IMG/VR virus record: IMGVR_UViG_3300022822_000041
Location: 1 to 38,236 of that record
Source: a virus
Reading direction: 5' to 3' (one strand)
Length of the DNA: 38,236 nucleotides
Positions 1-21,361 of the stretch are shown here, piece after piece. The position numbers and the translations under genes were made by a program. Each line of letters begins with the position of its first letter. Positions within the stretch are counted from its first letter, which is position 1. Below the pieces are notes generated by a model. That model saw only the letters and a list, made by a program, of their open reading frames with translations, did not search any database and was not told where the DNA came from.

Positions 1-79
1 CAGTAAAACGGAGTTTGTTATCTTCAGGGGAGTAGGTAGCATTAAACTCAATACCTTGAGTATGTTCTGTATTTATCAT
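1..79 (-). CDS. N-terminus of a DUF3560-like protein (cut by window edge)
   Basis: The first 26 codons of a leftward gene are present; the rest lies outside the window. The start is set by the phage start element (GGAATTGACGATG, complement of 77-89). The peptide begins MINTEHTQGIEFNATYSPED and continues NKLRFT. The ATYSPEDNKLRL-type opening is what I remember at the N-terminus of DUF3560 proteins, which are common on plasmids and phages and have no settled function. That match is from memory and rests on about 14 residues. It is the first gene after a terminator hairpin (129-148) and a palindromic operator-like site (95-110), so it probably heads its own transcription unit. Confidence 0.6.
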   Translation of the reverse strand, partial: MINTEHTQGIEFNATYSPEDNKLRFT

Positions 80-94
80 CGTCAATTCCTAGGG

Positions 95-110
95 GTGTTC
101 AGGTGAACAC
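95..110. promoter_or_regulatory. Operator-like palindrome, copy 1
   Basis: GTGTTCAGGTGAACAC, one base away from the perfect 16-base palindrome GTGTTCACGTGAACAC. It lies 15 bases upstream of the start codon of the leftmost gene. It may be a protein-binding site; in RNA it could also fold as a short hairpin. Confidence 0.6.
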
Positions 111-128
111 TTATTGTTAATTAAAGTA

Positions 129-148
129 AGTCGGGGCGAACCCCGACT
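129..148 (-). terminator. Intrinsic terminator-like hairpin after the 201-aa gene
   Basis: Read on the minus strand, AGTCGGGG and CCCCGACT form a perfect 8-bp stem closed by a TTCG tetraloop and followed by TACTTTAATT. It sits between the stop of the 190-795 gene and the next operator. The T-tract is broken, so termination may be partial. Confidence 0.6.
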
Positions 149-189
149 AGGGTGTTAAATTATATTACTTTGAGAAATAATTCAAGCTT

Positions 190-795
190 TTAGGCTGTCA
201 TTAACTCTTCGAACTTCTTGATTTTTTCAACTGGCACTAATTCACCGGCTTTGCTTTTTGCTTTCTCAGGGAGGTACTTGTCCAGCGCTGTGGTTGACTT
301 TCTTAGTTGCGCCACTGTGTTCACTGAATCAAGAATGTCCCATACTTCATGGACCAAATTTTTAGCGGGCTTTCTCAATGCGTCGTACTCCTCGATTAAG
401 CCTTTTATTTTGGCGTTAACATCGAAAGTAACAACCCCGGTGGAATTCGGGGATATTAGTTTTAAACCAAGGATGCCTACATAGAAATCGAGCCCGTATC
501 TTACAGATTTTCCTCTTTCTACATTAATCCATACATCTTTGGCCTTTAATTCATAATCCTCACGCATCTTCACCGAACAAGAGCGAATATAATTACCCAT
601 CGCTTCTATTTGGGGTTCCGAAAAAGCAACCGCTAAACACTCTTTAAACCTGAGAGTGTTAAGGCCATATTTTTTTTCCATCTGAGCCCTCACTTCTTTG
701 GTTATCTTCACGTCAAGCGCCTGTATTTTTGATCCAATCTTATCTTTCAAAACGTCTCGTACTATTTTGTCACAAACTGCATGTGTTAATCGCAT
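190..795 (-). CDS. Early protein of unknown function, 201 aa
   Basis: The protein begins MRLTHAVCDKIVRDVLKDK and is mixed-charge and soluble, without membrane segments. Its start resembles phage proteins annotated as nucleotide-modification-associated domain 5 (Nmad5), which open with a RLT-x-x-x-x-x-IV pattern; this is a weak resemblance from memory. An ATG exists nine codons further upstream, but it lies inside the palindrome 815-830; the start element GGAATTGACGAT immediately before the ATG at 795 marks the real start. The gene is preceded by a perfect palindrome and followed by a terminator hairpin, so it is probably monocistronic. Confidence 0.75.
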   Translation of the reverse strand: MRLTHAVCDKIVRDVLKDKIGSKIQALDVKITKEVRAQMEKKYGLNTLRFKECLAVAFSEPQIEAMGNYIRSCSVKMREDYELKAKDVWINVERGKSVRYGLDFYVGILGLKLISPNSTGVVTFDVNAKIKGLIEEYDALRKPAKNLVHEVWDILDSVNTVAQLRKSTTALDKYLPEKAKSKAGELVPVEKIKKFEELMTA

Positions 796-814
796 ATCGT
801 CAATTCCTTGTTGG

Positions 815-830
815 GTGTTCACGTGAACAC
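815..830. promoter_or_regulatory. Operator-like palindrome, copy 2 (perfect)
   Basis: GTGTTCACGTGAACAC, extended symmetrically by GG/CC on each side. It lies 19 bases upstream of the ATG at 795 and just after the stop codon of the 843-2156 gene. A TTAAC sequence precedes it on the minus strand, as at several other copies. Confidence 0.7.
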
Positions 831-842
831 CCTTAGTTAAAA

Positions 843-2156
843 TTATCTATGGGTGAAATATAAATCATCACCGGCTATTTTGTATTGGGACGCTAGGTGG
901 ACGTTAAAATACGTTTCAACGTCGATGTACTGCATGAGCTCAAGATTCTCTAGCTGCACAACCAAGCTTTGGTCTAAAACTCCGTCTGTAACAAAGTCAT
1001 ATGCTGATTTGTAACAACCGATATAATCCCTGTCTAAATTCTCGAGCATGAATTGGTCCTGAGCCATAACTTCCGCCTCAAGCAAATCCAGCTTGGCATC
1101 TGAGTTGCCATCGACCCAATAGTTACCCCCAAAGTCTAACGGCATCACGTATTCGATTTTTTGGTTGTCGATGTAAGCTTTACCTTCCTGCGAATAGGCT
1201 AAAAAATATTCGGGGATGTTGAAAACTCTGTGGACGTAAAGCACCTCACCAAAGCTCGTATTAAAGCGCTCTGCATACTCCTCCAGAATTTCCTCAGCCT
1301 CACTGTATAGCTCCCCCATGTTATCACGCTCACTGAGACTCAGACGCAGCGTTATCTCAATGTTTGCTGGGGCCGCTGAAGGGATTAGGAATTCCACAAT
1401 CGGCTCGTTGTTATTTATCCGATCATCCCAATCATCCTCATCATCCTCGTGGAAGATACCCACCTTCGGGTATACCTTAGGTTCTGGGGGTTGCTCCGGA
1501 GCACAAGGGGGTGCTACAGGGGGTACGTTATCTGAAAAATATTCCCAACGGTCAACCCAAGCTTCACCCAGATAATTAAATTCCAGCTTAAAAATATTTT
1601 GTAGCCCGCCGACTACATCGTGGTCCAAGAAATCAGAGCCATACTCCATAAAGTTGTATTTTGGCGTCTGGTAAATTAAATCCTTGGCCTTAGTGGGGAG
1701 GCCATGCTCGAGAAAATAATTAATTCGCATCGCTGCGGCCACCGGACCCGGTCCTAGGCCATCCCAACCTGGGTAGCAAATGAAGTCATACACCCACGTT
1801 CGATAATCCTCTAACAAGCACGAAAAATCGAAGTACGTATCCAGCACATTCTCAGCATCCCAAAAGTCAGGTTGTTCGCCGGTCACGCTGACAAGTGAGT
1901 TTCTCAAGTCATAGCAAAAGGCAAACGCATTTCGCTTAATCAAAGCTAAATCCATCCCATCGGTAAGACGGTCGTAACTCACAGGGTTACACTTAGAATT
2001 AATGTAACTGTCCCAGTTCTTATTCTCATACTGGGCGACCTCTACGCCGGTGTTTAAGTGCTTAGAAAGCTTGGTTAAATTATCCATCGCTGTCTGAGAA
2101 AGTAACTTACTCGCCAGCACATGGGGTTCTCTAATTCTGGGCATTTTATTTTTCAT
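843..2156 (-). CDS. Large acidic early protein of unknown function, 437 aa
   Basis: I do not recognise the family. The protein is acidic and rich in aromatic residues. It looks two-part: an N-terminal half to about residue 210, a proline-rich linker (VPPVAPPCAPEQPPEPK) with a run of acidic residues (HEDDEDDWDD) near 215-245, then a C-terminal half. No signal peptide, membrane span or catalytic motif stands out. The start follows a variant start element, GGAATTGACGCT then ATG. It is preceded by the imperfect palindrome at 2193-2208 and is probably transcribed alone or by read-through from the operon to its right. Confidence 0.75.
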   Translation of the reverse strand: MKNKMPRIREPHVLASKLLSQTAMDNLTKLSKHLNTGVEVAQYENKNWDSYINSKCNPVSYDRLTDGMDLALIKRNAFAFCYDLRNSLVSVTGEQPDFWDAENVLDTYFDFSCLLEDYRTWVYDFICYPGWDGLGPGPVAAAMRINYFLEHGLPTKAKDLIYQTPKYNFMEYGSDFLDHDVVGGLQNIFKLEFNYLGEAWVDRWEYFSDNVPPVAPPCAPEQPPEPKVYPKVGIFHEDDEDDWDDRINNNEPIVEFLIPSAAPANIEITLRLSLSERDNMGELYSEAEEILEEYAERFNTSFGEVLYVHRVFNIPEYFLAYSQEGKAYIDNQKIEYVMPLDFGGNYWVDGNSDAKLDLLEAEVMAQDQFMLENLDRDYIGCYKSAYDFVTDGVLDQSLVVQLENLELMQYIDVETYFNVHLASQYKIAGDDLYFTHR

Positions 2157-2192
2157 AGCGTCAATTCCTAATTTTATTTGTTAATTGCAGAA

Positions 2193-2208
2193 GTGTTCAC
2201 AGGAACAC
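2193..2208. promoter_or_regulatory. Operator-like palindrome, copy 3 (diverged)
   Basis: GTGTTCACAGGAACAC, with two changes in the second half relative to the perfect palindrome. It directly follows the stop of the 69-aa gene and lies 36 bases ahead of the ATG at 2156. Confidence 0.5.
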
Positions 2209-2209
2209 C

Positions 2210-2419
2210 TCAAAGTTTATTATCTATCTCTAAAAGCTCAGCCTTTGAGGATTCTAAAATTCTCTCGATTGTTCTCGCTAACCCCACAGCTGTTTTACTG
2301 CCCCAAGTGGTGTCATAAAATCCATCCACGGGCTTTTTAAGCTTCAACATCTTGGCAATTACTTTGCCGCGAAACGCTAAAAGCGAGAGGCTCGCCTCAA
2401 CTTTATTTACTGTACTCAT
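2210..2419 (-). CDS. Small early protein of unknown function, 69 aa
   Basis: The product begins MSTVNKVEASLSLLAFRGK and ends with a helical, leucine- and glutamate-rich stretch. It is not recognised. It is the last gene of a three-gene leftward operon (3352-4137, 2429-3355, 2210-2419), starting 9 bases after the preceding stop with an AAGGA ribosome-binding site and without the phage start element, as expected for an internal operon gene. Confidence 0.6.
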   Translation of the reverse strand: MSTVNKVEASLSLLAFRGKVIAKMLKLKKPVDGFYDTTWGSKTAVGLARTIERILESSKAELLEIDNKL

Positions 2420-2428
2420 AATTAATCC

Positions 2429-3355
2429 TTAAAAATTAATAGGAGATTGGAAAACCGTTCGGGTTCTGTCCATTGGCTTGGTGTAGTAAAAATCAAACTT
2501 GCCATCAAACACACCCTTGAATCGGGTCTCCACAGGGTCATCCGAATATCTCTGAATGTAGGTACTGCAATGCTCTTGCTTGACCACAATACCCTTAATT
2601 TCATGGGGGTTTGAACGCAGCGATTCCACATCCCACAGCAATAAATCCATCGGATAGCCCCGCGTAAACCATTCTGGGTTATGCGAATAATCTTGAATTA
2701 CCCGAGCTACCATTCTAGGCACTGCATGGCCTTGAAGCGTTAACAAGGCTCGCAAATACTTTGAAAATGCTCGCAGCATCTCAAGAATAGGCTCCATTTT
2801 CGTGTCGCAATAGAAAATATACCCTGCCGTGGTGTAGCCCATACCTTGGGGCATTAAGCATTTCGCTCGCAGGGCCTCAATTTCAGTCATGATGACCATG
2901 AAGTTAGTTACGATCGCCGATAGTTTTCCGTGGTGCGCTGGAAACTTTCTCGGGCCTCGATAACCTTTGCTGCTAGACCCTGAGTTACGAGAAAAAACAC
3001 CCTCAATCCCATCTACTATCCTGGACTCTAATTTATCGAACAGCTCAGCATTGAAAAGCCATTGCTTATTCGCCTCGCCATCCTCATTCAAAGGGGCCAT
3101 AAAACCCCTTCGAACCTCAAATACCCGGTCTCTGAAACTAGGAACTGAAGTAGCCCAATAGGGTAAATCCATTGCAAAATCAGCTTGCAATTTATATCCA
3201 ACAGACTCCAGTTCAGGATATTGAAAGTCCTTAATTTCTAGCAGGGCAATAAATTTTTTCTGACTGAATAGCGTCGCAATTTGATAAAACGGACGACAGA
3301 AATCCTCAACTTTTATTTGCTCGTTCTCCCGAGCCTTAGCGAAACTGTAACTCAT
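2429..3355 (-). CDS. Early protein of unknown function, 308 aa
   Basis: I do not recognise this protein. It begins MSYSFAKARENEQIKVEDF, is soluble, and has a central serine/glycine-rich basic patch (RNSGSSSKGYRGPRKF near residue 123) that could be a flexible or nucleic-acid-contacting loop. The ATG overlaps the stop codon of the upstream gene (ATGA), so translation is coupled. Its ribosome-binding site, TTGGAG, lies within the upstream gene. Confidence 0.7.
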   Translation of the reverse strand: MSYSFAKARENEQIKVEDFCRPFYQIATLFSQKKFIALLEIKDFQYPELESVGYKLQADFAMDLPYWATSVPSFRDRVFEVRRGFMAPLNEDGEANKQWLFNAELFDKLESRIVDGIEGVFSRNSGSSSKGYRGPRKFPAHHGKLSAIVTNFMVIMTEIEALRAKCLMPQGMGYTTAGYIFYCDTKMEPILEMLRAFSKYLRALLTLQGHAVPRMVARVIQDYSHNPEWFTRGYPMDLLLWDVESLRSNPHEIKGIVVKQEHCSTYIQRYSDDPVETRFKGVFDGKFDFYYTKPMDRTRTVFQSPINF

Positions 3356-4137
3356 GATAATTGCTCCAAAGGTAGTTCTAATTGCGTTATATGGTGAGTG
3401 AAATTAGGCACCACGTATTCTTCAAACATCTCGGCATAGGCGATATCGCCATAAAAACCCCAACAAGAGTCAACCTCCTCGCCCTTGTGCTCCAAGGTAA
3501 AACCCCAAATATTGCCGGTTAAGTAATCATCCCAAACCTTAACGTCTGACGTTATCCAACCCTGAACACGCTCCTCAGTCTTGGCCGAAATACGCTGGAC
3601 ACTTAAATTTTCACGCACCACGGCTTTGCTCTGGCAAGCAAATCCCACGACCCCAGAATCCCAGCGACAAGAAAAGGAACTGGTTGAAATGGTGATACCT
3701 GAATGGTCATAGATATAAACCCACGTCCAAACATACAGAGATGAAAACAACTCCTGAAGTCTCTCAAAAACATCCGCCCCACTTACTAGGCGCTCCTCTA
3801 AGCCATAGAAATAACTTTCAACGTCATAATTTACCTTGTCTTGGATCAAGTCCATCATCGCCGCTCTAACGTCTGAGTAGTTATGCTTTAGGCCAATATT
3901 GTAGCGCCTGTGAAAAGTATAAAGCTGAGTGACCAGCTCCATTTCACAGGGCGGATCCATGCAGTCGGTCTCTCTCACAAACTCCAACTTCCAATCGCCT
4001 TGGGCTTGGAATTCATAACTTTCCTCAGAGGTGAAATTATTTTGGAAAACCGCCTCCACAAGAGCGGGGAGGGCATTGTGTAGGGCCGTTACTTTAGGTA
4101 AAACCCGATTTTTTATTGCTTGTATTTCAGTATTCAT
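3352..4137 (-). CDS. Early protein of unknown function, 261 aa
   Basis: First gene of a three-gene operon. The ATG at 4137 follows the start element GGAATTGACGAT, and a palindrome lies 27 bases upstream. The protein begins MNTEIQAIKNRVLPKVTALH, is acidic and has many tryptophans and tyrosines in its C-terminal two thirds. No family recognised. The four-base overlap with the next gene suggests the two products are made together and may act together. Confidence 0.7.
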   Translation of the reverse strand: MNTEIQAIKNRVLPKVTALHNALPALVEAVFQNNFTSEESYEFQAQGDWKLEFVRETDCMDPPCEMELVTQLYTFHRRYNIGLKHNYSDVRAAMMDLIQDKVNYDVESYFYGLEERLVSGADVFERLQELFSSLYVWTWVYIYDHSGITISTSSFSCRWDSGVVGFACQSKAVVRENLSVQRISAKTEERVQGWITSDVKVWDDYLTGNIWGFTLEHKGEEVDSCWGFYGDIAYAEMFEEYVVPNFTHHITQLELPLEQLS

Positions 4138-4164
4138 ATCGTCAATTCCTAAGGTTGTTTTGAA

Positions 4165-4180
4165 GTGTTCATGTGAACAC
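4165..4180. promoter_or_regulatory. Operator-like palindrome, copy 4
   Basis: GTGTTCATGTGAACAC, one central base different from the perfect palindrome, with symmetric flanking A/T. It lies between the 81-aa gene and the 261-aa gene. Confidence 0.6.
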
Positions 4181-4198
4181 TCCAGTTAAGTTAATTAG

Positions 4199-4444
4199 TT
4201 ACCTAGCAGGGTCTAGCAAGCGAATAAAGACCCAAGGTTTACCTTTGGGGCGGTGGTACCATTCTCCAGTTTCTTGCAACACGGGCAGCACTTCAGTTTC
4301 AAAGCAAAAGCCCCGCCGAGCACAAAAACTTTTAGCGACTCGCTCACCCGTTTTCTGAGGCATCACTTGTCGGGCCCATTTGTATTTCTCTGAAAAACGG
4401 ACTTGTAAGCCTATTTGTAGGCGCATTCCAGTTATGATCCCCAT
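4199..4444 (-). CDS. Small basic early protein of unknown function, 81 aa
   Basis: The product begins MGIITGMRLQIGLQVRFSEK, is basic and carries two cysteines (FCARRGFCFETE). Not recognised. It starts 3 bases after the stop of the 48-aa gene with an AGGTGA ribosome-binding site, so it is the third member of a compact operon headed by the 108-aa gene. Confidence 0.6.
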   Translation of the reverse strand: MGIITGMRLQIGLQVRFSEKYKWARQVMPQKTGERVAKSFCARRGFCFETEVLPVLQETGEWYHRPKGKPWVFIRLLDPAR

Positions 4445-4447
4445 AAA

Positions 4448-4594
4448 TCACCTAAAACCTAACGTTAAAGGGGTCAAATTGGAACGCTGAGCTACTTTCT
4501 CGCGCTTTTTGATATATCCTACGCTGGAACGAACGCGAGGCTTTAAAAGCTCGCACAGGGCTTTTTCTCTTTTTTCTAATTCAAGCAGATTCAC
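4448..4594 (-). CDS. Small basic early protein, 48 aa, GTG start
   Basis: A 48-codon frame starting with GTG whose first bases overlap the TGA of the upstream gene (GTGA). A strong GGAGG lies 7 bases before the GTG, inside the upstream gene. The peptide begins MNLLELEKREKALCELLKPR; it is basic and helical, with no known family. Its stop is 3 bases before the next ATG. The tight packing on both sides and the good ribosome-binding site argue that it is real. Confidence 0.6.
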   Translation of the reverse strand: MNLLELEKREKALCELLKPRVRSSVGYIKKREKVAQRSNLTPLTLGFR

Positions 4595-4917
4595 GCGGAT
4601 TCCTCCAACTGACAAGACCAAACATATTCCCCCACGCCATTCTCAACGTGAAACTCATCCGCCACGCCAAACAATCGAATGTTGCTGGCCGTAGGTGCTG
4701 CAAAATTGAGGTTTCGAAAGTTAAAGGGCTTGTCTTCCCACAAGGCAGCATTCAGCAACATGCACGGCAAACCATCCAAAGTAATGTCTATGAGTAGGCC
4801 ATAGGCTTTGTCTAAGCTCATGTAACGCGCTTTCTTGTTGCTTGAATAGAAGAGTACTGCTTTAGGGAGTTCTGTCGCTTGAGAGGGCTCCCAAGCAAGC
4901 TTGTGTATTGTTTTCAT
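4591..4917 (-). CDS. Early protein of unknown function, 108 aa
   Basis: First gene of a three-gene operon with the 48-aa and 81-aa genes. The ATG at 4917 directly follows TTTGGAATTGACG; an in-frame TTG four codons upstream belongs to that element and is not the start. The protein begins MKTIHKLAWEPSQATELPKA and is predicted to be globular and soluble. Not recognised. The promoter-palindrome at 4945-4976 lies just upstream. Confidence 0.7.
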   Translation of the reverse strand: MKTIHKLAWEPSQATELPKAVLFYSSNKKARYMSLDKAYGLLIDITLDGLPCMLLNAALWEDKPFNFRNLNFAAPTASNIRLFGVADEFHVENGVGEYVWSCQLEESA

Positions 4918-4944
4918 CGTCAATTCCAAATTATTGGTTAGTTA

Positions 4945-4976
4945 ATTATATTTTGCCGAAGTGTTCACGTGAACAC
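4945..4976 (-). promoter_or_regulatory. Early promoter overlapping operator palindrome, copy 5
   Basis: A perfect palindrome GTGTTCACGTGAACAC (4961-4976) contains a -35-like TTCACG on the minus strand. Exactly 17 bases downstream is a perfect -10 TATAAT (complement of 4945-4950). This is the clearest sigma-70-type promoter in the early arm. A protein bound to the palindrome would cover the -35. It would drive the 108-, 48- and 81-aa genes. Confidence 0.6.
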
Positions 4977-5515
4977 CCCGACAACCCAGCTAGAGTAGCA
5001 TCCCCCTAAAACCCAACGCAACTACTTCTCAATACCCCAAACTCCAGACTCGAACAACAATTGAAAACCTAGACGCGAGATTTATTTGTTGCATGGCCTT
5101 TTGTTTGCGTGAACCTAAACGAATTTAGGTATAGGTATTCATAAAATAAATTGGGCAGGGGGGTTTTGAGTCATGCCCTTTTCTTTTTAGTTTCTTGAAA
5201 CTTTAAACTAACGGTTTCAATAGAAAAAGTTTAGGCTTTTCTTTTGGTTTTCTGCCACGCTCGCAGTTTATGTTATCATTCATAATCTATTAAAGAGTAA
5301 AAGTTTATTGACAAGATTTTTTTTTCCTTGAGTTAGCTTATAGAAATAGAGCTTAGAGAATTTTGTTCTAAATCCTCTGAACGCGAGTGTAGCACCTAGA
5401 TGGAGGCATAGGGGCCAATCGAGATAAGTTCCTAAAATGAGGGTTTCGGACAAGGCCTGAAAAACGGGCTTTTTTGCTGGTTAAAAAATGAACAGCAAAA
5501 ATGTTTTTAAAACGC
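4977..5515. other. Non-coding or unassigned gap with palindromes
   Basis: No convincing gene. It holds ACCTAAA-CGAA-TTTAGGT (5113-5130), AGTTTC-TT-GAAACT near 5189-5202 next to a second AAAC/GTTT half-site pair, a hairpin TTTTTGCTG/CAGCAAAAA (5471-5479 with 5493-5501), and a plus-strand terminator-like hairpin ending in T6 near 5454-5475. A minus-strand 26-codon frame (5203-5283, with an RGRKPKEKPK basic patch) lacks a ribosome-binding site. The AT-rich stretch 5280-5340 could hold a promoter; TTGTCA on the minus strand at 5309-5314 is the best -35. Confidence 0.4.
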
Positions 5516-5707
5516 CTAGATTAACTCGAAAGTTTCGCCGCAAGTCGACCGCATTTCACGCTCAATTTCACCCAAATAAGCGAGAACTTCGACCATTTTT
5601 GAACGCCAAACTGGACGTAAATCCAGCCTTTTTAAGCCTAAAAAAGCGCCTGTTTTGCTGTTTTTTACCACAATAAGGGTTGTTTTGGTATTGGTATTTA
5701 TACGCAT
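5516..5707 (-). CDS. Small early protein of unknown function, 63 aa
   Basis: The ATG follows the start element as GGAGAATTGACGATG. The product begins MRINTNTKTTLIVVKNSKTG, with a beta-strand-like N-terminal half and a helical C-terminal half ending GETFELI. Not recognised. The leader is long (93 bases from the palindrome at 5801-5816) and contains an A8 run and a short GGCCT/AGGCC inverted repeat just ahead of the ribosome-binding site. Confidence 0.6.
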   Translation of the reverse strand: MRINTNTKTTLIVVKNSKTGAFLGLKRLDLRPVWRSKMVEVLAYLGEIEREMRSTCGETFELI

Positions 5708-6005
5708 CGTCAATTCTCCGATAGGCCTGAGGCCGTTGTTTTTTTTGGGGCGGTCTAGGTTAATACTTAGGCCGTTGGGGGTGTTAAAGATTTTTGTAAA
5801 GGGTTCACGTGAACACCTTTAAAAACCCACATGAAGCCGTTTTGAGGGTGCTACAAAAGGGCTTGATTTAGGTTCTTGGGTTTGGTTTTAGGCTTTGCGG
5901 ATGGTTTTCAGGGTGTTTAATATCCGCTAAAAGCACACATTATGTTAAATTGGTAAAGCTTTCTTTCGGGCCTTACCTCAGTTTTTGGGACTGTGCCAAA
6001 ATTTC
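5708..6005. other. Early intergenic leader region
   Basis: About 300 bases without a supported gene. It contains a palindrome copy (5801-5816), two copies of AGGCCGTTG (near 5730 and 5770), a GGCCTGAGGCC repeat followed by T8 on the plus strand (about 5724-5746), and a GCGGAT/ATCCGC inverted repeat near 5897-5928. A plus-strand reading frame across 5950-6195 overlaps the better-supported minus-strand small genes and is not called. Confidence 0.4.
5801..5816. promoter_or_regulatory. Operator-like palindrome, copy 6 (one base deleted)
   Basis: GGGTTCACGTGAACAC. Restoring one missing T in the left arm would give a symmetric 24-base palindrome including the flanking AAA/TTT. It is probably a decayed or tuned copy; it lies upstream of the 63-aa gene. 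Confidence 0.5.
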
Positions 6006-6077
6006 TCACCTTGCACCAAAAGGGTGCAAAACGTCCAAATTTAGACTTAAAAATAGCCAAAAACCCCTCTTTTTCAT
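6006..6077 (-). CDS. Possible 23-aa peptide, coupled to the membrane protein gene
   Basis: The ATG overlaps the stop of the 54-aa gene (ATGA), and GGGAGG lies 7 bases before it. The peptide, MKKRGFWLFLSLNLDVLHPF followed by GAR, is very short. The overlap and strong ribosome-binding site are the only support, so this may be chance. Confidence 0.3.
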   Translation of the reverse strand: MKKRGFWLFLSLNLDVLHPFGAR

Positions 6078-6238
6078 CGCAGAACCTCCCTTAAAACGAG
6101 TAATAAACTCCATACTACTAGCCCTGAAATACCTAAAACCATTGGTATGTTTAGGCCTTGGACCAGCATGTACAAACTCAATAATCCAACCGTAAAAAGA
6201 ACCATCATAACTAGTGCATACAGCAAAAATTGTTTCAT
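6074..6238 (-). CDS. Small membrane protein, 54 aa, two predicted transmembrane helices
   Basis: The product begins MKQFLLYALVMMVLFTVGLL. A first hydrophobic segment spans about residues 4-26, a short GLNIP turn follows, and a second segment spans about 32-49; it ends with LREVLR. The AAGGAAATAAA ribosome-binding site is 4-8 bases before the ATG, and a perfect palindrome lies 20 bases upstream. It lacks the phage start element. Size and topology would fit a holin-like, superinfection-exclusion or other small early membrane protein, but nothing decides between these. Confidence 0.65.
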   Translation of the reverse strand: MKQFLLYALVMMVLFTVGLLSLYMLVQGLNIPMVLGISGLVVWSLLLVLREVLR

Positions 6239-6258
6239 TTTATTTCCTTAATAATGGG

Positions 6259-6274
6259 GTGTTCACGTGAACAC
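6259..6274. promoter_or_regulatory. Operator-like palindrome, copy 7 (perfect)
   Basis: GTGTTCACGTGAACAC, 20 bases upstream of the ATG of the small membrane protein. On the minus strand TTTTACAA precedes it. Confidence 0.7.
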
Positions 6275-6291
6275 TTGTAAAACCTGGCGAC

Positions 6292-6334
6292 CGCGAAGGA
6301 AACTGGGGACCCCCATTTTCCTTCGCGCGTTTTT
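6292..6334 (+). terminator. Long hairpin with T-tract (plus-strand terminator or cruciform)
   Basis: Arms 6292-6308 and 6311-6327 pair over 17 bp with one mismatch and a 2-base centre (CGCGAAGGAAACTGGGG on the left). CG and T5 follow on the plus strand. It has the form of a strong rightward intrinsic terminator, although all recognised genes around it run leftwards. It could instead be a cruciform in an origin-like region. Confidence 0.55.
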
Positions 6335-6379
6335 ATAAACCCCACCCCAACCAGCACGCCTAGGCGCATGTAACAGGGC

Positions 6380-6423
<44 letters not shown>

Positions 6424-6452
6424 ATGCGCTTAATAGCGGGGCATGCTGTTAA

Positions 6453-6486
6453 AAAACAAAAGTATTCACGTGAACACTTTTGTTTT
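6453..6486. promoter_or_regulatory. 34-base palindrome built on operator copy 8
   Basis: Two 17-base arms (6453-6469 and 6470-6486) pair with a single mismatch. The core is GTATTCACGTGAACAC (6462-6477) and the arms extend as AAAACAAAA/TTTTGTTTT. It follows the terminator of the 248-aa gene rather than preceding a start codon, so unlike the other copies it may act as a terminator, barrier or origin element. Confidence 0.65.
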
Positions 6487-6497
6487 GTAACAAGCAC

Positions 6498-6533
6498 AAA
6501 AAACAGGCCTTAGGCTTGCGCCTTGGGCCCTGT
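6498..6533 (-). terminator. Intrinsic terminator of the 248-aa gene
   Basis: On the minus strand an outer ACAGG/CCTGT stem, a CC/GG pair and an inner AGGC/GCCT stem closed by a GCAA tetraloop are followed directly by T6. It lies just after the stop codon at 6549. Confidence 0.7.
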
Positions 6534-6548
6534 ATTAGGCTTGTCTAC

Positions 6549-7295
6549 TTAGTGTGCTTCATGGGCCGTCTCGGGGCGCATGCTATTGACTAACTCCAGC
6601 ATGGCCTTGCTCACTAGCACGCTTTGCTTATCGTTCAACTTGGCTTCAGTCTTAACACGTTTTGTTAGCTCGATGACCTTCGCGTCAAGTAACTTTTGAA
6701 CCTTGGTTAGTTCGGTATCAATGGCCGATTGCATAACGGTCGCAGCTGGTACGGTCGCAGCGTCCGCTTGCTTGCCCTTGGTTGCGGCCTTGGCTGGCTG
6801 TTCTTTTTTCGCTGGCTTGTTTACGGCTTTAATCTTAGTTTCTACGGTAGGAATGAAGCCGTTTAAGAATTCCATCCAATCGGTACGGTTTGAAGGCGCT
6901 TCAGTTTTGCCGAAGTCTATGGCCGTGAATATTTGCTTTGCAACATCGCTGTAGGCCTTGCTTAAGTCGACCGCTTCGACTTGCTTAAGTACTGGCTTTA
7001 GGTGCTCGACATTGGCTTGAATTGGCTTAACATAACGTGAGAAGAAATTGTGTACTTTATTATATAAAGGATGTTTCTTTTTGTTCGGTTCGGCTTTTGT
7101 GCCCTTGATATTAAAGAACGCTAATAATTCGGGTTCTTTTGTGCAGTCAATCGCTGGGTTGTTAATAAAGGCAAGCGCAAGTGCTACGCGGACGCTATCG
7201 GCTTGCATCTCGCCTTGTGTTGCGGCTTTCAAAAATGAGGTCGCTTTAGTAGCTGAAAGAATGTTGTTTTTAGTTGCTGTAGTTAATGTAGTCAT
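6549..7295 (-). CDS. Early protein of unknown function, 248 aa
   Basis: Start fixed by GGAATTGACGAA immediately before the ATG at 7295; an ATG 12 codons upstream lies in the palindrome. The N-terminal part (to about 155) is alpha-helical. A lysine/alanine-rich linker (about 163-185, KPAKKEQPAKAATKGKQ) looks disordered, and the C-terminal 60 residues look like a coiled coil. The pattern suits a nucleic-acid-binding or scaffolding protein, but no family was recognised. It is probably a single-gene unit, with a palindrome upstream and a strong terminator downstream. Confidence 0.7.
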   Translation of the reverse strand: MTTLTTATKNNILSATKATSFLKAATQGEMQADSVRVALALAFINNPAIDCTKEPELLAFFNIKGTKAEPNKKKHPLYNKVHNFFSRYVKPIQANVEHLKPVLKQVEAVDLSKAYSDVAKQIFTAIDFGKTEAPSNRTDWMEFLNGFIPTVETKIKAVNKPAKKEQPAKAATKGKQADAATVPAATVMQSAIDTELTKVQKLLDAKVIELTKRVKTEAKLNDKQSVLVSKAMLELVNSMRPETAHEAH

Positions 7296-7323
7296 TTCGT
7301 CAATTCCTATTGTGTTGTTTGAA

Positions 7324-7339
7324 GTGTTCATGTGAACAC
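7324..7339. promoter_or_regulatory. Operator-like palindrome, copy 9
   Basis: GTGTTCATGTGAACAC inside the symmetric AAGTGTTC-ATGT-GAACACTT. It is 28 bases upstream of the ATG at 7295 and has the same core as copy 4. It is the rightmost copy found. Confidence 0.65.
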
Positions 7340-7619
7340 TTGTTAATGTTATCCGCGTTTTGCGGCGCTGGGCTGTTCCAACGTGTAAGCACTATAGAAG
7401 GGGGGGTGCTAAAACTGCAAGCATTAGGGGCTAAGTGGGGGGGCAGCCCCCTCACCCCACCCCAAAAATTTTCCGAATTTCACTCCGGTGTAACCCAGTA
7501 CCTCAATGCAAAAAACTAGCAAAAATACCAATAAACCAGCGATTGTTACAAACTGTTACCGATTAGCGACAAATAGGTCTTGGTTTAGACCTTAAACTTT
7601 TGTAGTATGCCTCTCGTTG

Positions 7620-15935: not shown

Positions 15936-17135
15936 ATGAACACAAGACCATTAACCGAAATTAAACGCGCCCCACTAGCGGTCGTGTTGGGACAAATCCT
16001 TTCGGATAACCCGAATGAATCAAAAGACTCAGGCTTAAAGCTTATCAGCGATGCGAAGAAATTTGGGGTCTCAATACGAGATTACCTTACTCTATCGGTT
16101 GACGTTGCTGCGTCTGAATCAGACACGAAACGTTTTAGATCACAAGACGGTTTAATGAGCGGTTACGAAGCTACACTAGCTGAGATGAATCTGCCATTTA
16201 AAAACGCTTTCCGCCAAGGTATCACGTTGCAAGCTGCAGCAGATACGTTTGCAATGCGTCCAGGCTCACGGGCTTTATTCCCGGAAGTAATAGACGACAT
16301 GATGCAGTGGAATACTCGCCAGGATATGTTTGAAACAACTCAAGGGTTGGTTTCTCAAACACGTACTGTCACGGGTAACGAAGTTATCACTCAAGCGATT
16401 TTCGACGACCAAGGCCAGTTGAATACAGCGCCGATTGCTGAATTAGCCAACGTGCCAATTCAAACAATCAAAAGCTCTGACCGTGCGATTAAGTTCTTCA
16501 AACACGGTTCAGCGATTCGTACTTCTTACGAGTTCGATCGCCGTGCAAGCTTAGATGCGTTAACGCCGTATGCGAACCGCGTAAACCGTAACCTAGAAAT
16601 TAGTAAAGTAGGTTCTTTGACCTCATTGCTAGTCAGTGGTGATGGTGTTCACGTTGCAGCTACCGCTTACGCGGGCTCTACGTTTAAGAACTGGGATGTT
16701 GCGGGCACTAAGTCACTTAAAGACAACTACGTTGCGCTTGCTGACTTCCTAATGCAGCGGGCTCGCCAAGGTACACCAATAGACATGATTCTCTGTAGCT
16801 ACGAAATGTGGTTAGAGCTTTTCTTAATGTTTATGCCGGTTACTGGCAACAAGTCGGTTGCAGAGCATTTACAAGACCGTGGCGCTCCTAACATGGGTCT
16901 AGCTTTAGACTTCATCCAAGGTGTTAGCGTACGTATCGCTAGTTCAGCTCCAGCCGGCAAGTTGATTTGTTACTCAGTAGCAGACACAGCTGAAGAGCTT
17001 ATCGAGTCTGGATCATTGTTGAATGAATCTGAGACAGCGATTAAGAACCAATCAATTACTTATGTTAAGACAATGAACATGGGTTACCGTTTGGTTTATG
17101 GCGATACGCGTCATATCTTCGACACAACTTCGTAA
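15936..17135 (+). CDS. Major capsid protein (HK97 fold)
   Basis: 399 aa. It builds the icosahedral shell. Length, position after protease and decoration genes, and layout fit: an N-terminal helical arm, a PFKNAFRQGITLQAAADTFA region (about 89-108), a central domain, and a C-terminal strand (QSITYVKTMNMGYRLVYGD) typical of the HK97 A-domain end. The start follows TTTGGAGATTGACG, the strongest form of the start element, as expected for the most abundant protein. A TTCG hairpin follows the stop. Confidence 0.87.
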   Translation: MNTRPLTEIKRAPLAVVLGQILSDNPNESKDSGLKLISDAKKFGVSIRDYLTLSVDVAASESDTKRFRSQDGLMSGYEATLAEMNLPFKNAFRQGITLQAAADTFAMRPGSRALFPEVIDDMMQWNTRQDMFETTQGLVSQTRTVTGNEVITQAIFDDQGQLNTAPIAELANVPIQTIKSSDRAIKFFKHGSAIRTSYEFDRRASLDALTPYANRVNRNLEISKVGSLTSLLVSGDGVHVAATAYAGSTFKNWDVAGTKSLKDNYVALADFLMQRARQGTPIDMILCSYEMWLELFLMFMPVTGNKSVAEHLQDRGAPNMGLALDFIQGVSVRIASSAPAGKLICYSVADTAEELIESGSLLNESETAIKNQSITYVKTMNMGYRLVYGDTRHIFDTTS

Positions 17136-18191: not shown

Positions 18192-18680
18192 ATGGATTTA
18201 ACAATCAAAGTTTGGAAGGACAACACTAAACTGGGGGTGGTGGTTACCAAGCCAAATGAAAACACTTTAACAATGATGCCGGTGCGAAGTCTTATTTATG
18301 TACAAAAGAAATATGGACTGAAATCCGGGGATATTCTCTGCAAAGTTAGAAACAAACCACATTTCATATTGGCCAGCCATCATGAAACCGAAGAAATGGA
18401 CGTTTTGCTAGGACTTCGAGTCAATACGATGGCTGAAGTTAAGAAGCAATATAGCGGTACACATCCAACAACCGGAATGCCAACGGGGCAATTCAACATG
18501 ATGTTGATTACGATACCCGCAGTTTTACAGGTTGGGGTTATTCAGGATGAAAAAAGCCTTCAGACGGACAACTCTGTTTACTATGTTGCTGAAAGACTCA
18601 GCAAAGATGATGTCATCGAGGGCAGAAATATTCACAGTATTCAGGAAATAGCAGGGCTCTTCCGCGTTGAAGTGAGGTAA
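18192..18680 (+). CDS. Probable head closure (stopper) protein
   Basis: 162 aa, beta-rich, no recognised motif. Gene order (portal, protease, capsid, adaptor, this gene, neck protein, tail terminator) places it where siphophages encode the stopper that seals the DNA in the head. Function is by position only. It starts 2 bases after the adaptor stop with AGGTG as ribosome-binding site. Confidence 0.6.
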   Translation: MDLTIKVWKDNTKLGVVVTKPNENTLTMMPVRSLIYVQKKYGLKSGDILCKVRNKPHFILASHHETEEMDVLLGLRVNTMAEVKKQYSGTHPTTGMPTGQFNMMLITIPAVLQVGVIQDEKSLQTDNSVYYVAERLSKDDVIEGRNIHSIQEIAGLFRVEVR

Positions 18681-18683
18681 CTC

Positions 18684-19652
18684 ATGAAACAGGTTGGGGC
18701 CACGTCCGCTTTCGTTATTCAGTTAGATGCGTTTATGACCGGCGTTTCAGTTGGCAACGCAGCTTTTGTGCAAGCCAAAGCGGAGGCGGCGGCTGAAGAG
18801 TTTTTCAAGCGCTACTTTAAAAACATGCCCGGTTATTTAGATAGTCTTTCAGAAACACTTCAGAGCCACGGCGGGGATAGCAATGCTTTCGGGTTTAATT
18901 ACTCAAACCCGCTGACGTATCGATGGATAGTTAAGAAGAATCCAAGCTTACGTTTTATTAAGAAATCTTCAGCCTTGGCCGCAGATAAAAAAAAGAACCC
19001 AGGGGATAAAAGTTATAAGCCTAAATTGTGGCGGGGACTGACTGTTCAAGGGTCCCTAGTTCGCCAGAAACTGAAGCTGAGTGACCAACTAAAAGGCTTG
19101 GCTAGAAATAGCGAGAATGCCTCCAAAAAAATGGTATCCGCCCTGGGTGGCGTTAATCTTAAAACGGTAACCGGGGGGGGCGCTTTGAGGCCTAGTGTTT
19201 CAGTCGGTGCGGATGGTAGGCCCAGAAATACGAAAAGTGGAAAGCGGGTTAACTGGGTTGATGCGGTTCGTCCTGAAGTGAATGCTTATTTGAATAAGAC
19301 CGACTTATCTAAAGAGCCAAGATTGACTCAGACGGGGAAGGGCATTGTTGAAATAAAAGGGGCTAAAGGTAACTTCTCCGTGCAGCGAGCACTATACCGA
19401 GGCGCTTTCTCAGTGCTGGGAAATATTTCCTTTTTAGACAAGCTAGACAAGATGGGGCCGGGTCGCACGGACTTCGATTACATTCAGACCTTAAAAAGTG
19501 CCAAGCTGATTAATAGAGCGATGGTGGGCAAGCTCAAGGGATTGAAATACTATGGCCATGACTACCCTGAAATGATGTTAGGGTATTATTTAGCGGGCAA
19601 TGATAGGAACACAGACTTAACTGAAATTTTAAAGGAAATGCTCAATGGCTGA
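18684..19652 (+). CDS. Neck or tail completion protein candidate, 322 aa
   Basis: A basic protein with a disordered, lysine-rich middle (about 95-180, with SVGADGRPRNTKSGKRV) and a more ordered C-terminus. It lies where tail-completion proteins (lambda Z, HK97 gp10-like) are encoded, but is much longer than usual. I see no diagnostic motif. It starts 3 bases after the previous stop with GAGGT, and its end overlaps the next start by 8 bases. Confidence 0.6.
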   Translation: MKQVGATSAFVIQLDAFMTGVSVGNAAFVQAKAEAAAEEFFKRYFKNMPGYLDSLSETLQSHGGDSNAFGFNYSNPLTYRWIVKKNPSLRFIKKSSALAADKKKNPGDKSYKPKLWRGLTVQGSLVRQKLKLSDQLKGLARNSENASKKMVSALGGVNLKTVTGGGALRPSVSVGADGRPRNTKSGKRVNWVDAVRPEVNAYLNKTDLSKEPRLTQTGKGIVEIKGAKGNFSVQRALYRGAFSVLGNISFLDKLDKMGPGRTDFDYIQTLKSAKLINRAMVGKLKGLKYYGHDYPEMMLGYYLAGNDRNTDLTEILKEMLNG

Positions 19653-20091
19653 TTACAAAAACATTCAAGCGTCACTATTAAAATATTGTTCGGAGAAGGC
19701 TACCTTTCTGAATACTCATTTTGGCGGAACTTTTGTGGCCACAAATTTAGATGCTTACTTGGATGAGAACGGCTTGCCTACTGAGAACATAATAGGGCTT
19801 GAGTCTTTGACGGTTGCGGCAGCTAATGATGCTCAGCCAACGGTGGTATTTAGTGCCGCAATTACGGTTGCCACTTCAGCAGATCCGAATCTGATGAATT
19901 TAAGTGATGTGATAGATGGGATATTTGACGATTTCAAACCAACAAAAGAAGTGCGTATATTTGATGTGCACACTGGGTTAACCGTAGGACATGCGATTAC
20001 GTTAGATGACACCCGTGTGATGCCAGTTCAAAAGTCTTCAAAATCTAAGATCTTCCAATCTGTCGTCTTCGAAGCGGCCTTAGTTTACTAG
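19645..20091 (+). CDS. Tail terminator protein candidate (gpU-like)
   Basis: 148 aa. Size and place just before the tail tube gene match the tail terminator, which caps the tube and joins it to the head. The protein has a helix at the start, then an alternating strand pattern. Assignment is by position and length; no signature residue was seen. The start codon overlaps the stop region of the preceding gene (translational coupling). Its 3' end overlaps the antisense gene by 12 bases. Confidence 0.6.
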   Translation: MADYKNIQASLLKYCSEKATFLNTHFGGTFVATNLDAYLDENGLPTENIIGLESLTVAAANDAQPTVVFSAAITVATSADPNLMNLSDVIDGIFDDFKPTKEVRIFDVHTGLTVGHAITLDDTRVMPVQKSSKSKIFQSVVFEAALVY

Positions 20092-20412
20092 CTCCTCCGC
20101 TTCAGTTAGCTCATGTATTACAGTGGCTAGGGTCACTTGAAAAGCTTGGGGTCGGGTGTATAGTGTACTACGGCAGAACTTATTGAGTTTCTCTAATTCT
20201 GAATCAGAGAGTCTTAAAGTAAAGCTTTTCAACGTACCGGATAAATCTACAGAAGACATATCTGTTATTTGTGGTTTATTGGTAAAGAAGTAGTCTAACA
20301 TCGTACGTATTTTTGATGCTGTATTTGGCTCATCTATAGGCAGATTTTTAACTGCTTCGTAAACTACTCCGGGGAGCGTGACTGGTACTGGGTTATTTCT
20401 CGATATCATCAT
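20080..20412 (-). CDS. Ribbon-helix-helix DNA-binding protein, antisense in the tail operon
   Basis: 110 aa. Residues 62-104 follow the ribbon-helix-helix pattern: strand KSFTLRLSD, helix SELEKLNKFCRSTL, then RPQAFQVTLATVIHEL. Residues 9-44 repeat a similar strand-helix-helix layout (VPVTLPGVVYEAVKNL, then NTASKIRTMLDYFF), so the chain may hold two tandem domains, as in TraY. Such proteins are usually repressors. The start is ATGATG with GAGG 9 bases before. It is the only leftward gene among the late genes and must have its own promoter; an AT-rich TTATTATTAATA lies upstream. It is a candidate for binding the early palindromes or for regulating late genes. Confidence 0.7.
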   Translation of the reverse strand: MMISRNNPVPVTLPGVVYEAVKNLPIDEPNTASKIRTMLDYFFTNKPQITDMSSVDLSGTLKSFTLRLSDSELEKLNKFCRSTLYTRPQAFQVTLATVIHELTEAEELVN

Positions 20413-20467
20413 AACTAGGTCCTCGTTAGTAAGGTATTAATAATAACCTAAAATTTGGAGATTGACG

Positions 20468-21304
20468 ATGGCCGGTGACGCTAAATCAACTAACTTTATG
20501 CTGGGTACTGCCACAGTAATGCTCGGCACCCCGGAAGAACTATACGCGCTAAACCCTGTAGCCCACAGCTTAGGCTTAGTAAAGAATTTTAACATCGATG
20601 CTTCGAAAACCACTACGGACCTTCAGGGTGGCCGAACCAACGAAATCATCATGACATTGACCACAGGTGCTGAAACTCGTTGCACTTTTGAAATGTATGA
20701 ATACACTGAAAAGAACATTGCTTACGCTCTAGGTCTTGAAGGGTCTGGATTGGTAGCTGTTTCGGGGGATGCTTTTGTGTCGTCTTCGTCAGCTACTTTC
20801 TCAGCTGGATCGATAGAGATTTCGGTTGCGGATGGCCTAGGTCAGGACCTTAGTGCGGGGGATACTGTTAGTTTGCGTAATTCAGATGATGAGAATATTA
20901 TTATCGGTACGGTAACTGCAGTTTCTGGAATTGCCACTGGAACGGCTTCTGGCGGCACAGCATCGATTACGATAGCGGTACCGGATACGACCTTAGCCAC
21001 TGCGTTACCTGTAGGTACTGAAGTATCTCAAGTAACATCCCTTGATGTTGGTTCTACTGACGTTGACCGTGATTATTCGGCGAAGATAACTGGCCAGTTG
21101 GCAAACGGTAAATGGGTAACGTTATTGTTCCCGAAAATCCGTATTAGCTCGGGTTTATCTATGGCGTTCTCAACGGATCAGTTTGGCAACATCCCGTTTG
21201 AGTTTAAGCCCCTAAAACCATCTTTGGTGGATAGCAACTACGCGGCGTTCAAAGGCCGTTCAGGAACTATCAGCATTGACTCGGTAAAAGCCCCACTGGC
21301 GTAA
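20468..21304 (+). CDS. Major tail tube protein with extra beta domain
   Basis: 278 aa. It polymerises as stacked rings to make the tail tube. The sequence starts MAGDAKSTNFMLGTATVMLG and contains an insert (about 105-200, rich in Ser, Thr, Gly, Val) that looks like an immunoglobulin-like or surface domain between two halves of the tube fold. The start follows TTTGGAGATTGACG, the same strong element used for capsid and tape measure. A strong terminator follows, which would allow extra copies of this product. Confidence 0.8.
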   Translation: MAGDAKSTNFMLGTATVMLGTPEELYALNPVAHSLGLVKNFNIDASKTTTDLQGGRTNEIIMTLTTGAETRCTFEMYEYTEKNIAYALGLEGSGLVAVSGDAFVSSSSATFSAGSIEISVADGLGQDLSAGDTVSLRNSDDENIIIGTVTAVSGIATGTASGGTASITIAVPDTTLATALPVGTEVSQVTSLDVGSTDVDRDYSAKITGQLANGKWVTLLFPKIRISSGLSMAFSTDQFGNIPFEFKPLKPSLVDSNYAAFKGRSGTISIDSVKAPLA

Positions 21305-21334: not shown

Positions 21335-21361
21335 AAAGGTCTCAGATTGAGACCTTTTTTT
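21335..21361 (+). terminator. Strong intrinsic terminator after the tail tube gene
   Basis: AAAGGTCTC and GAGACCTTT form a perfect 9-bp stem around AGATT, ending in T7. The next gene starts 20 bases later, so later tail genes depend on read-through or antitermination. Confidence 0.88.

Follow-up and report, generated by a model that had tools for sequence, protein, structure and literature searches.

The small leftward gene lying among the tail genes of the viral DNA analysed here (IMG/VR record IMGVR_UViG_3300022822_000041, positions 1 to 38,236; hereafter the window, 38,236 nt) almost certainly encodes a DNA-binding protein, the putative repressor of a conserved control locus. The reading that we favour, and consider reasonably probable, is that of an autoregulated ribbon-helix-helix (RHH) repressor of the Arc/Mnt type which, in the clade of phages to which the window belongs (the window clade), would have in addition a distant target in the replication module. 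The protein is possibly also a candidate controller of the tail-tube unit. The open reading frame, its predicted fold, the conservation of its place, the selection acting on it and the operator-like sites with their positions were all computed.

The leftward gene and the predicted fold of its product

The gene (P0001; 20080-20412, minus strand) encodes 110 amino acids. It starts with ATG and its Shine-Dalgarno region, read from the sequence, lies at 20417-20424 of the same strand, with a GAGGA 7 nt upstream of the start codon. Its 3' end overlaps by 12 nt that of the rightward gene 19645-20091, which has no PHROG match, and 55 nt separate it from the ATG (20468) of the rightward gene 20468-21304, which matches phrog_28493, a family of unknown function. 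These two neighbours are called here tail terminator and tail tube, as positional names only. The initial annotation had described a leftward 110-residue gene placed in this way, with the 12-nt overlap, and the open reading frame agrees with it. The surroundings are those of an ordinary siphophage late block, in which terminase, the major head protein and the phrog_28493 gene are followed by the tape-measure chaperone. The same phage is represented by a further contig, G001 (66,179 b), which holds an identical copy of the RHH gene. G001 is 100% identical to the window over its positions 1-20556 (window 17681-38236) and 58631-66179 (window 1-7549); this overlap at both ends points to a circularly permuted genome of about 76 kb. 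That the gene is more than a chance reading frame is shown by the dN/dS values of 0.03-0.38 obtained for same-place genes within close groups, and by the persistence of the place across very divergent phages.

Sequence comparisons say little about the protein. A direct homology search against 50,697 phage records gave no match, and in IMG/VR the identical copy was the only one. Neither the window protein nor its closest kin match the Pfam RHH models; the window clade stays below every model and the window protein does not reach the curated cut-off of the Arc model PF03869. An AlphaFold2 model built from five window-clade sequences (mean pLDDT 83.4, pTM 0.74) predicts two β-α-α units sharing a two-stranded sheet, that is, the RHH fold. 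Unit 1 (residues 1-52; 20257-20412, minus strand) is made of strand 7-14 and helices 15-22 and 31-45, and its DNA-contact strand is diverged. Unit 2 (residues 53-110; 20083-20256, minus strand) is made of strand 61-68 and helices 70-83 and 87-109, and its strand reads F-T-L-R-L, as in the single-RHH orthologues described below. The first reading of the DNA had recognised one clear and one possible RHH unit. The clear unit holds, and "possible" was an understatement, as the model contains two complete units. The structure prediction proposed at that stage for tandem domains thus returned the RHH fold twice, and not an unrelated fold.

Among solved structures, the model is best matched (Z 12.0 over 101 residues) by F relaxosome chains, which we take to be TraY. 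The permuted single-chain Arc 1u9p (Z 9.1 over 80 residues) also matches, as does AvtR (Z 6.9), a regulator of an archaeal virus; CopG superimposes on unit 2 within 1.1 Å over 43 residues (residues 60-102), and several archaeal-virus RHH proteins rank at the top of a viral structure library. As in the window protein, two RHH units are carried by one chain in F plasmid TraY, in the engineered 1u9p and in AvtR of a lipothrixvirus. However, TraY serves the relaxosome, AvtR comes from an archaeal virus, 1u9p is a designed protein, and sequence identities are 10-17%. By profile comparison, unit 1 has no recognisable match, and the comparison of the protein halves with the single-RHH family is too weak. 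Because direct homology and half-profile comparisons gave too little, the kinship of the window protein with the single-RHH family rests on fold, position and operator.

Conservation and evolution of the junction

Judged from terminase and tube proteins, the closest cultured relatives are KB12-38, JWF, 2-1, Seuss, Lumi and Acinetobacter phages. In JWF and 2-1, a leftward gene is annotated at this junction (PJWF_00017, labelled "Arc-like DNA binding domain protein", and gene 00017, respectively). These opposite-strand genes are positional orthologues of the window gene, but they encode a single RHH of 65-66 residues and their half-sites form a direct repeat instead of an inverted one. Caulobacter phage Seuss (L007 3496-3882, minus strand) and Xylophilus phage Lumi (L006 3644-3901, minus strand) also carry a leftward RHH gene there, without public annotation.

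A search with a tail-tube profile retrieved 61 IMG/VR loci and four loci on bacterial contigs. The upstream gene and the RHH gene were then located by profile, the window-type tandems, which fall below the profile, being confirmed by their open reading frame. An opposite-strand RHH gene occupies the terminator/tube gap in 59 of 70 related loci, a count in which some phages are entered twice under two accessions, and these loci include every gap of 239-437 nt. The 11 RHH-less loci all have a gap of 61-110 nt, and there are no intermediate sizes. No other gene was found in this gap in any locus; where present, the RHH gene stands alone. Its convergent overlap with the upstream gene amounts to 4-83 nt in all 46 non-redundant cases, so that the message is antisense to the end of the terminator gene, as had been anticipated for the window. 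The window gene shares each of these positional traits, being a leftward RHH gene at the terminator/tube junction that overlaps the terminator gene convergently.

Most junction genes encode a single Arc-type RHH and are under purifying selection. Twenty of 30 single-RHH positional orthologues match Pfam Arc at E<0.01, and their best PDB relatives are AmrZ, Mnt and Arc. In a tree of tube and terminator proteins (55 rows), phages with the window-type tandem form one clade (100/99) and those with the Seuss-type tandem another (97/91). The latter form, which sequences suggest for Seuss, L062 and L063, is separated from the window clade by single-RHH and RHH-less phages; the tandem would therefore have originated at least twice. 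The RHH-less state requires four changes on the tree. The sister position of KB12-38 and L019 relative to the window clade is consistent with a loss of the RHH gene. Since dozens of distant relatives keep an RHH gene at the same place, the antisense junction gene is a lasting control element and not a one-off insertion.

The initial annotation had noted that late operons rarely tolerate a gene on the opposite strand. The remark can stand with the qualification that phage P22 offers a classic exception, its immI region with the repressor genes mnt and arc being situated inside the late operon (PMC2629481, PMC8022706). This region, or "ant moron" (mnt, arc, ant), lies between late genes 16 and 9 and is thought to affect the level of tailspike (PMC2629481, PMC8022706). 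The likeness lies in Arc/Mnt-type RHH repressor genes that sit in a late operon, are largely independent of the late message and vary among relatives (PMC2629481, PMC8022706). Nevertheless, the window locus has a single RHH gene, in fused tandem form, and neither ant nor an arc upstream on the late strand; its neighbour is a tail-tube gene, and its place is kept over a far more divergent lineage. As it lacks an antirepressor, the locus is not classed as immI, and in its action it would most resemble Mnt or Arc. Erwinia phage Midgardsormr38 also has an opposite-strand Arc-family gene between tail genes; however, its cassette adds a sense-strand arc and two antirepressor genes, and it belongs to another phage group and to another junction. 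In the literature searched, no description of a conserved tail-operon RHH regulator locus was found.

Candidate operators at the RHH promoter and in the replication module

A leftward promoter-like element, TCGTCA-17-TATTAT (20440-20468, minus strand), precedes the RHH gene. It is conserved in all five phages of the window clade, where it ends 27 nt before the RHH ATG, in line with the independently expressed regulator that had been envisaged. Its -35 falls on the tube start codon and its -10 within an 18-bp palindrome, AGGTTATTATTAATACCT (20432-20449, minus strand). This palindrome, covering the -10 of the gene's own promoter as in autoregulation, is likely the operator, as read from the sequence. 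When the region is compared with L014, identity is 97% over the 37 nt before the tube gene, 49% at third codon positions of the tube gene and 33% on the RHH side.

The junctions of relatives contain related motifs. Half-sites of the form [AT]GGT[TA] recur at a spacing of exactly 10 bp, one helical turn, in all 11 single-RHH representatives whose DNA-contact strand reads T-x-R. AGGTT is found upstream of 24 of the 26 RHHs having an [ST]-x-R strand versus 2 of the 20 others, and is the best separator among all 1,024 pentamers; with correction for phylogeny, this link between contact residues and half-sites leaves 2-3 usable tree pairs, too few to reach significance. In seven genomes of the JWF/Burkholderia-type clade, AGGTTNTTATTGRTA matches once genome-wide, in the terminator/tube gap. 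The RHH-less gap of KB12-38 contains an operator-like TGGTTATTATTAATA, perhaps a vestige, with 2 mismatches, in the opposite orientation and AT-rich. It should be noted that the consensus AGGTTNNNNTNNATACCK was partly fitted to its own sites, independent support coming from synteny and from a rank test.

Each of the five window-clade genomes contains exactly two copies of AGGTTNNNNTNNATACC[TG], which is absent from JWF and G009. The second copy is syntenic in the window-clade genomes, about 40 kb from the RHH gene; in the window phage it falls beyond the window, at 44208-44225 of G001. In all five genomes, this second site stands 104-114 nt before the start codon of the same Q/N-rich gene, which is followed by a 5'-3' exonuclease; on the other side of the site are a helicase and a small gene. 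It overlaps promoter-like hexamers, as judged by eye. When a matrix was built from the promoter sites of the window clade alone, the second site came 2nd genome-wide in four of the five genomes and 11th in G004; the top match of this matrix in the distant genome G009 is the RHH promoter of G009 itself. Outside the window clade, no replication-side site was found; the region upstream of the Q-rich gene of JWF and G009 was searched and contained nothing convincing. A Q/N-rich protein of about 314-355 residues, encoded between the helicase and exonuclease genes, is associated with G001 44100-44230 and the equivalent stretches of G002-G005; the two that were compared with PHROG had no match.

The mechanism that we infer involves repression, autoregulation, control of the replication operon and transcriptional interference. 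With its two fused RHH units, one chain would by itself make the structure for which Arc or Mnt needs two chains. The gene would be transcribed leftward from its own promoter, between the RHH and tube genes. The repressor would bind AGGT-N10-ACCT over its own -10 and limit its own synthesis; by binding the second site some 40 kb away, over the promoter of the Q/N-rich gene, it would also damp the replication-module operon. Because the RHH gene lies on the strand opposite to the late tail operon, late transcripts coming from the head genes would cross it backwards and, at high levels of late transcription, disturb its expression, a plausible contribution. Finally, the RHH promoter and the bound repressor would stand at the entrance of a separately terminated tail-tube unit. 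One may even imagine that, throughout this ~80-kb siphophage lineage, the backward RHH gene works as a two-way switch between replication and tail, repressing its own promoter and a replication promoter and being shut off by late antisense transcription, and that two or more sub-lineages turned the dimer into one fused chain, the operator becoming altered and asymmetric. We regard this broader scenario as rather doubtful.

Alternative roles of the RHH protein

Tentatively, the RHH protein may act only at the terminator/tube junction, where it would set the amount of the abundant tube protein; it would either repress a tube promoter or act on polymerase entering the tube unit, which it would block or collide with. 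An intrinsic terminator follows the tube gene (21335-21357, plus strand) and is strong and conserved in 52 of 56 relatives versus 1 of 168 control windows, which speaks for this local role. However, it is equally common in phages devoid of the RHH gene (8 of 9). With or without RHH, the junction thus guards a separately tuned unit, of which the terminator is independent of RHH. In the JWF/Burkholderia-type clade, a rightward TTGATT-17-TANNAT stands 33-35 nt before the tube ATG, and the uniqueness of the operator in seven of its genomes also favours a purely local action, as does the P22 precedent of the ant moron and tailspike (PMC2629481). Against it, a clear rightward promoter is seen only in that clade and no good one was found for the tube gene in the window clade, so that RHH control of the tube unit in the window phage is weakly supported. 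Moreover, the syntenic replication-side site would need a separate explanation. The only other AGGTT-N5-AGGTA of JWF, which can also be counted for the local role, lies just past the tube stop codon (G010 16810-16837), fused to a palindrome-like AGGTATCAAAAATACC; it is a possible second operator on the far side of the tube gene.

It is unlikely that the gene is a prophage-expressed moron or a Mnt-like repressor maintaining lysogeny, which would silence lytic genes or protect the host. Its own promoter-like element and its location within the late operon are compatible with such a role, and an integrase is encoded in 18 of 27 related records, that of the window phage included. JWF is reported to be able to undergo lysogeny (PMC7996906). 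Relatives also occur on bacterial contigs of 290 and 559 kb. Members of the phage group found on large bacterial contigs, L105 (Burkholderia paludis MSh1), L104 (Inquilinus limosus MP06) and L107 (Azospirillum cavernae), are probably prophages. However, the presence of the RHH gene and that of an integrase are not linked: Pseudoalteromonas phage KB12-38 encodes an integrase but lacks the RHH gene, whereas JWF, 2-1, Seuss and Lumi have the RHH gene and no detectable integrase. As to the traits of a moron, the promoter-like element is present and the gene is absent from 11 of the 70 loci, but no leftward terminator was found in 18600-20080, nor was a partner gene. Purifying selection and a fixed place in most of the lineage are also unlike typical morons. 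The autoregulated repressor with a replication-side target remains our preferred reading.

The initial annotation had also proposed the protein as a reader of the early palindromes, both being regulatory features of the same genome. These correspond to the 16-bp GTGTTCACGTGAACAC, present with at most one mismatch in 11 copies in the phage (in the window at 95, 815, 2193, 4165, 4961, 5801, 6259, 6462 and 7324), mostly just upstream of leftward early genes. The proposal is very improbable and was abandoned: no copy exists in 19 related records, among them four with the nearest RHH proteins, none lies in or near the RHH promoter, and the palindrome is unlike AGGT-N10-ACCT. GTGTTCACGTGAACAC has the appearance of an operator read by some other regulator specific to this phage. 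The non-coding early region also harbours a (GT)n repeat, about 20 units long (6384-6423), adjoining a 17-bp inverted repeat (6292-6327).

Many RHH proteins are antitoxins, and 15 of 30 single RHHs also match FitA-like_RHH, weakly; with no second gene in the gap at any locus, hence no toxin partner, and no PADLOC match to a defence family, a toxin-antitoxin pair is scarcely credible here and was rejected.

Altogether, a seemingly odd insertion becomes a conserved control locus with a readable candidate operator, which accounts for a stretch left without annotation in the published phages Seuss and Lumi. At one and the same place, single RHH dimers occur alongside single-chain tandems that evolved independently, together with their candidate DNA sites, and this natural series may be useful for studying how RHH specificity changes and how dimer symmetry is lost. 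For a large group of phages whose regulation is apparently undescribed, the locus also offers a candidate link between the replication module and the control of late genes.
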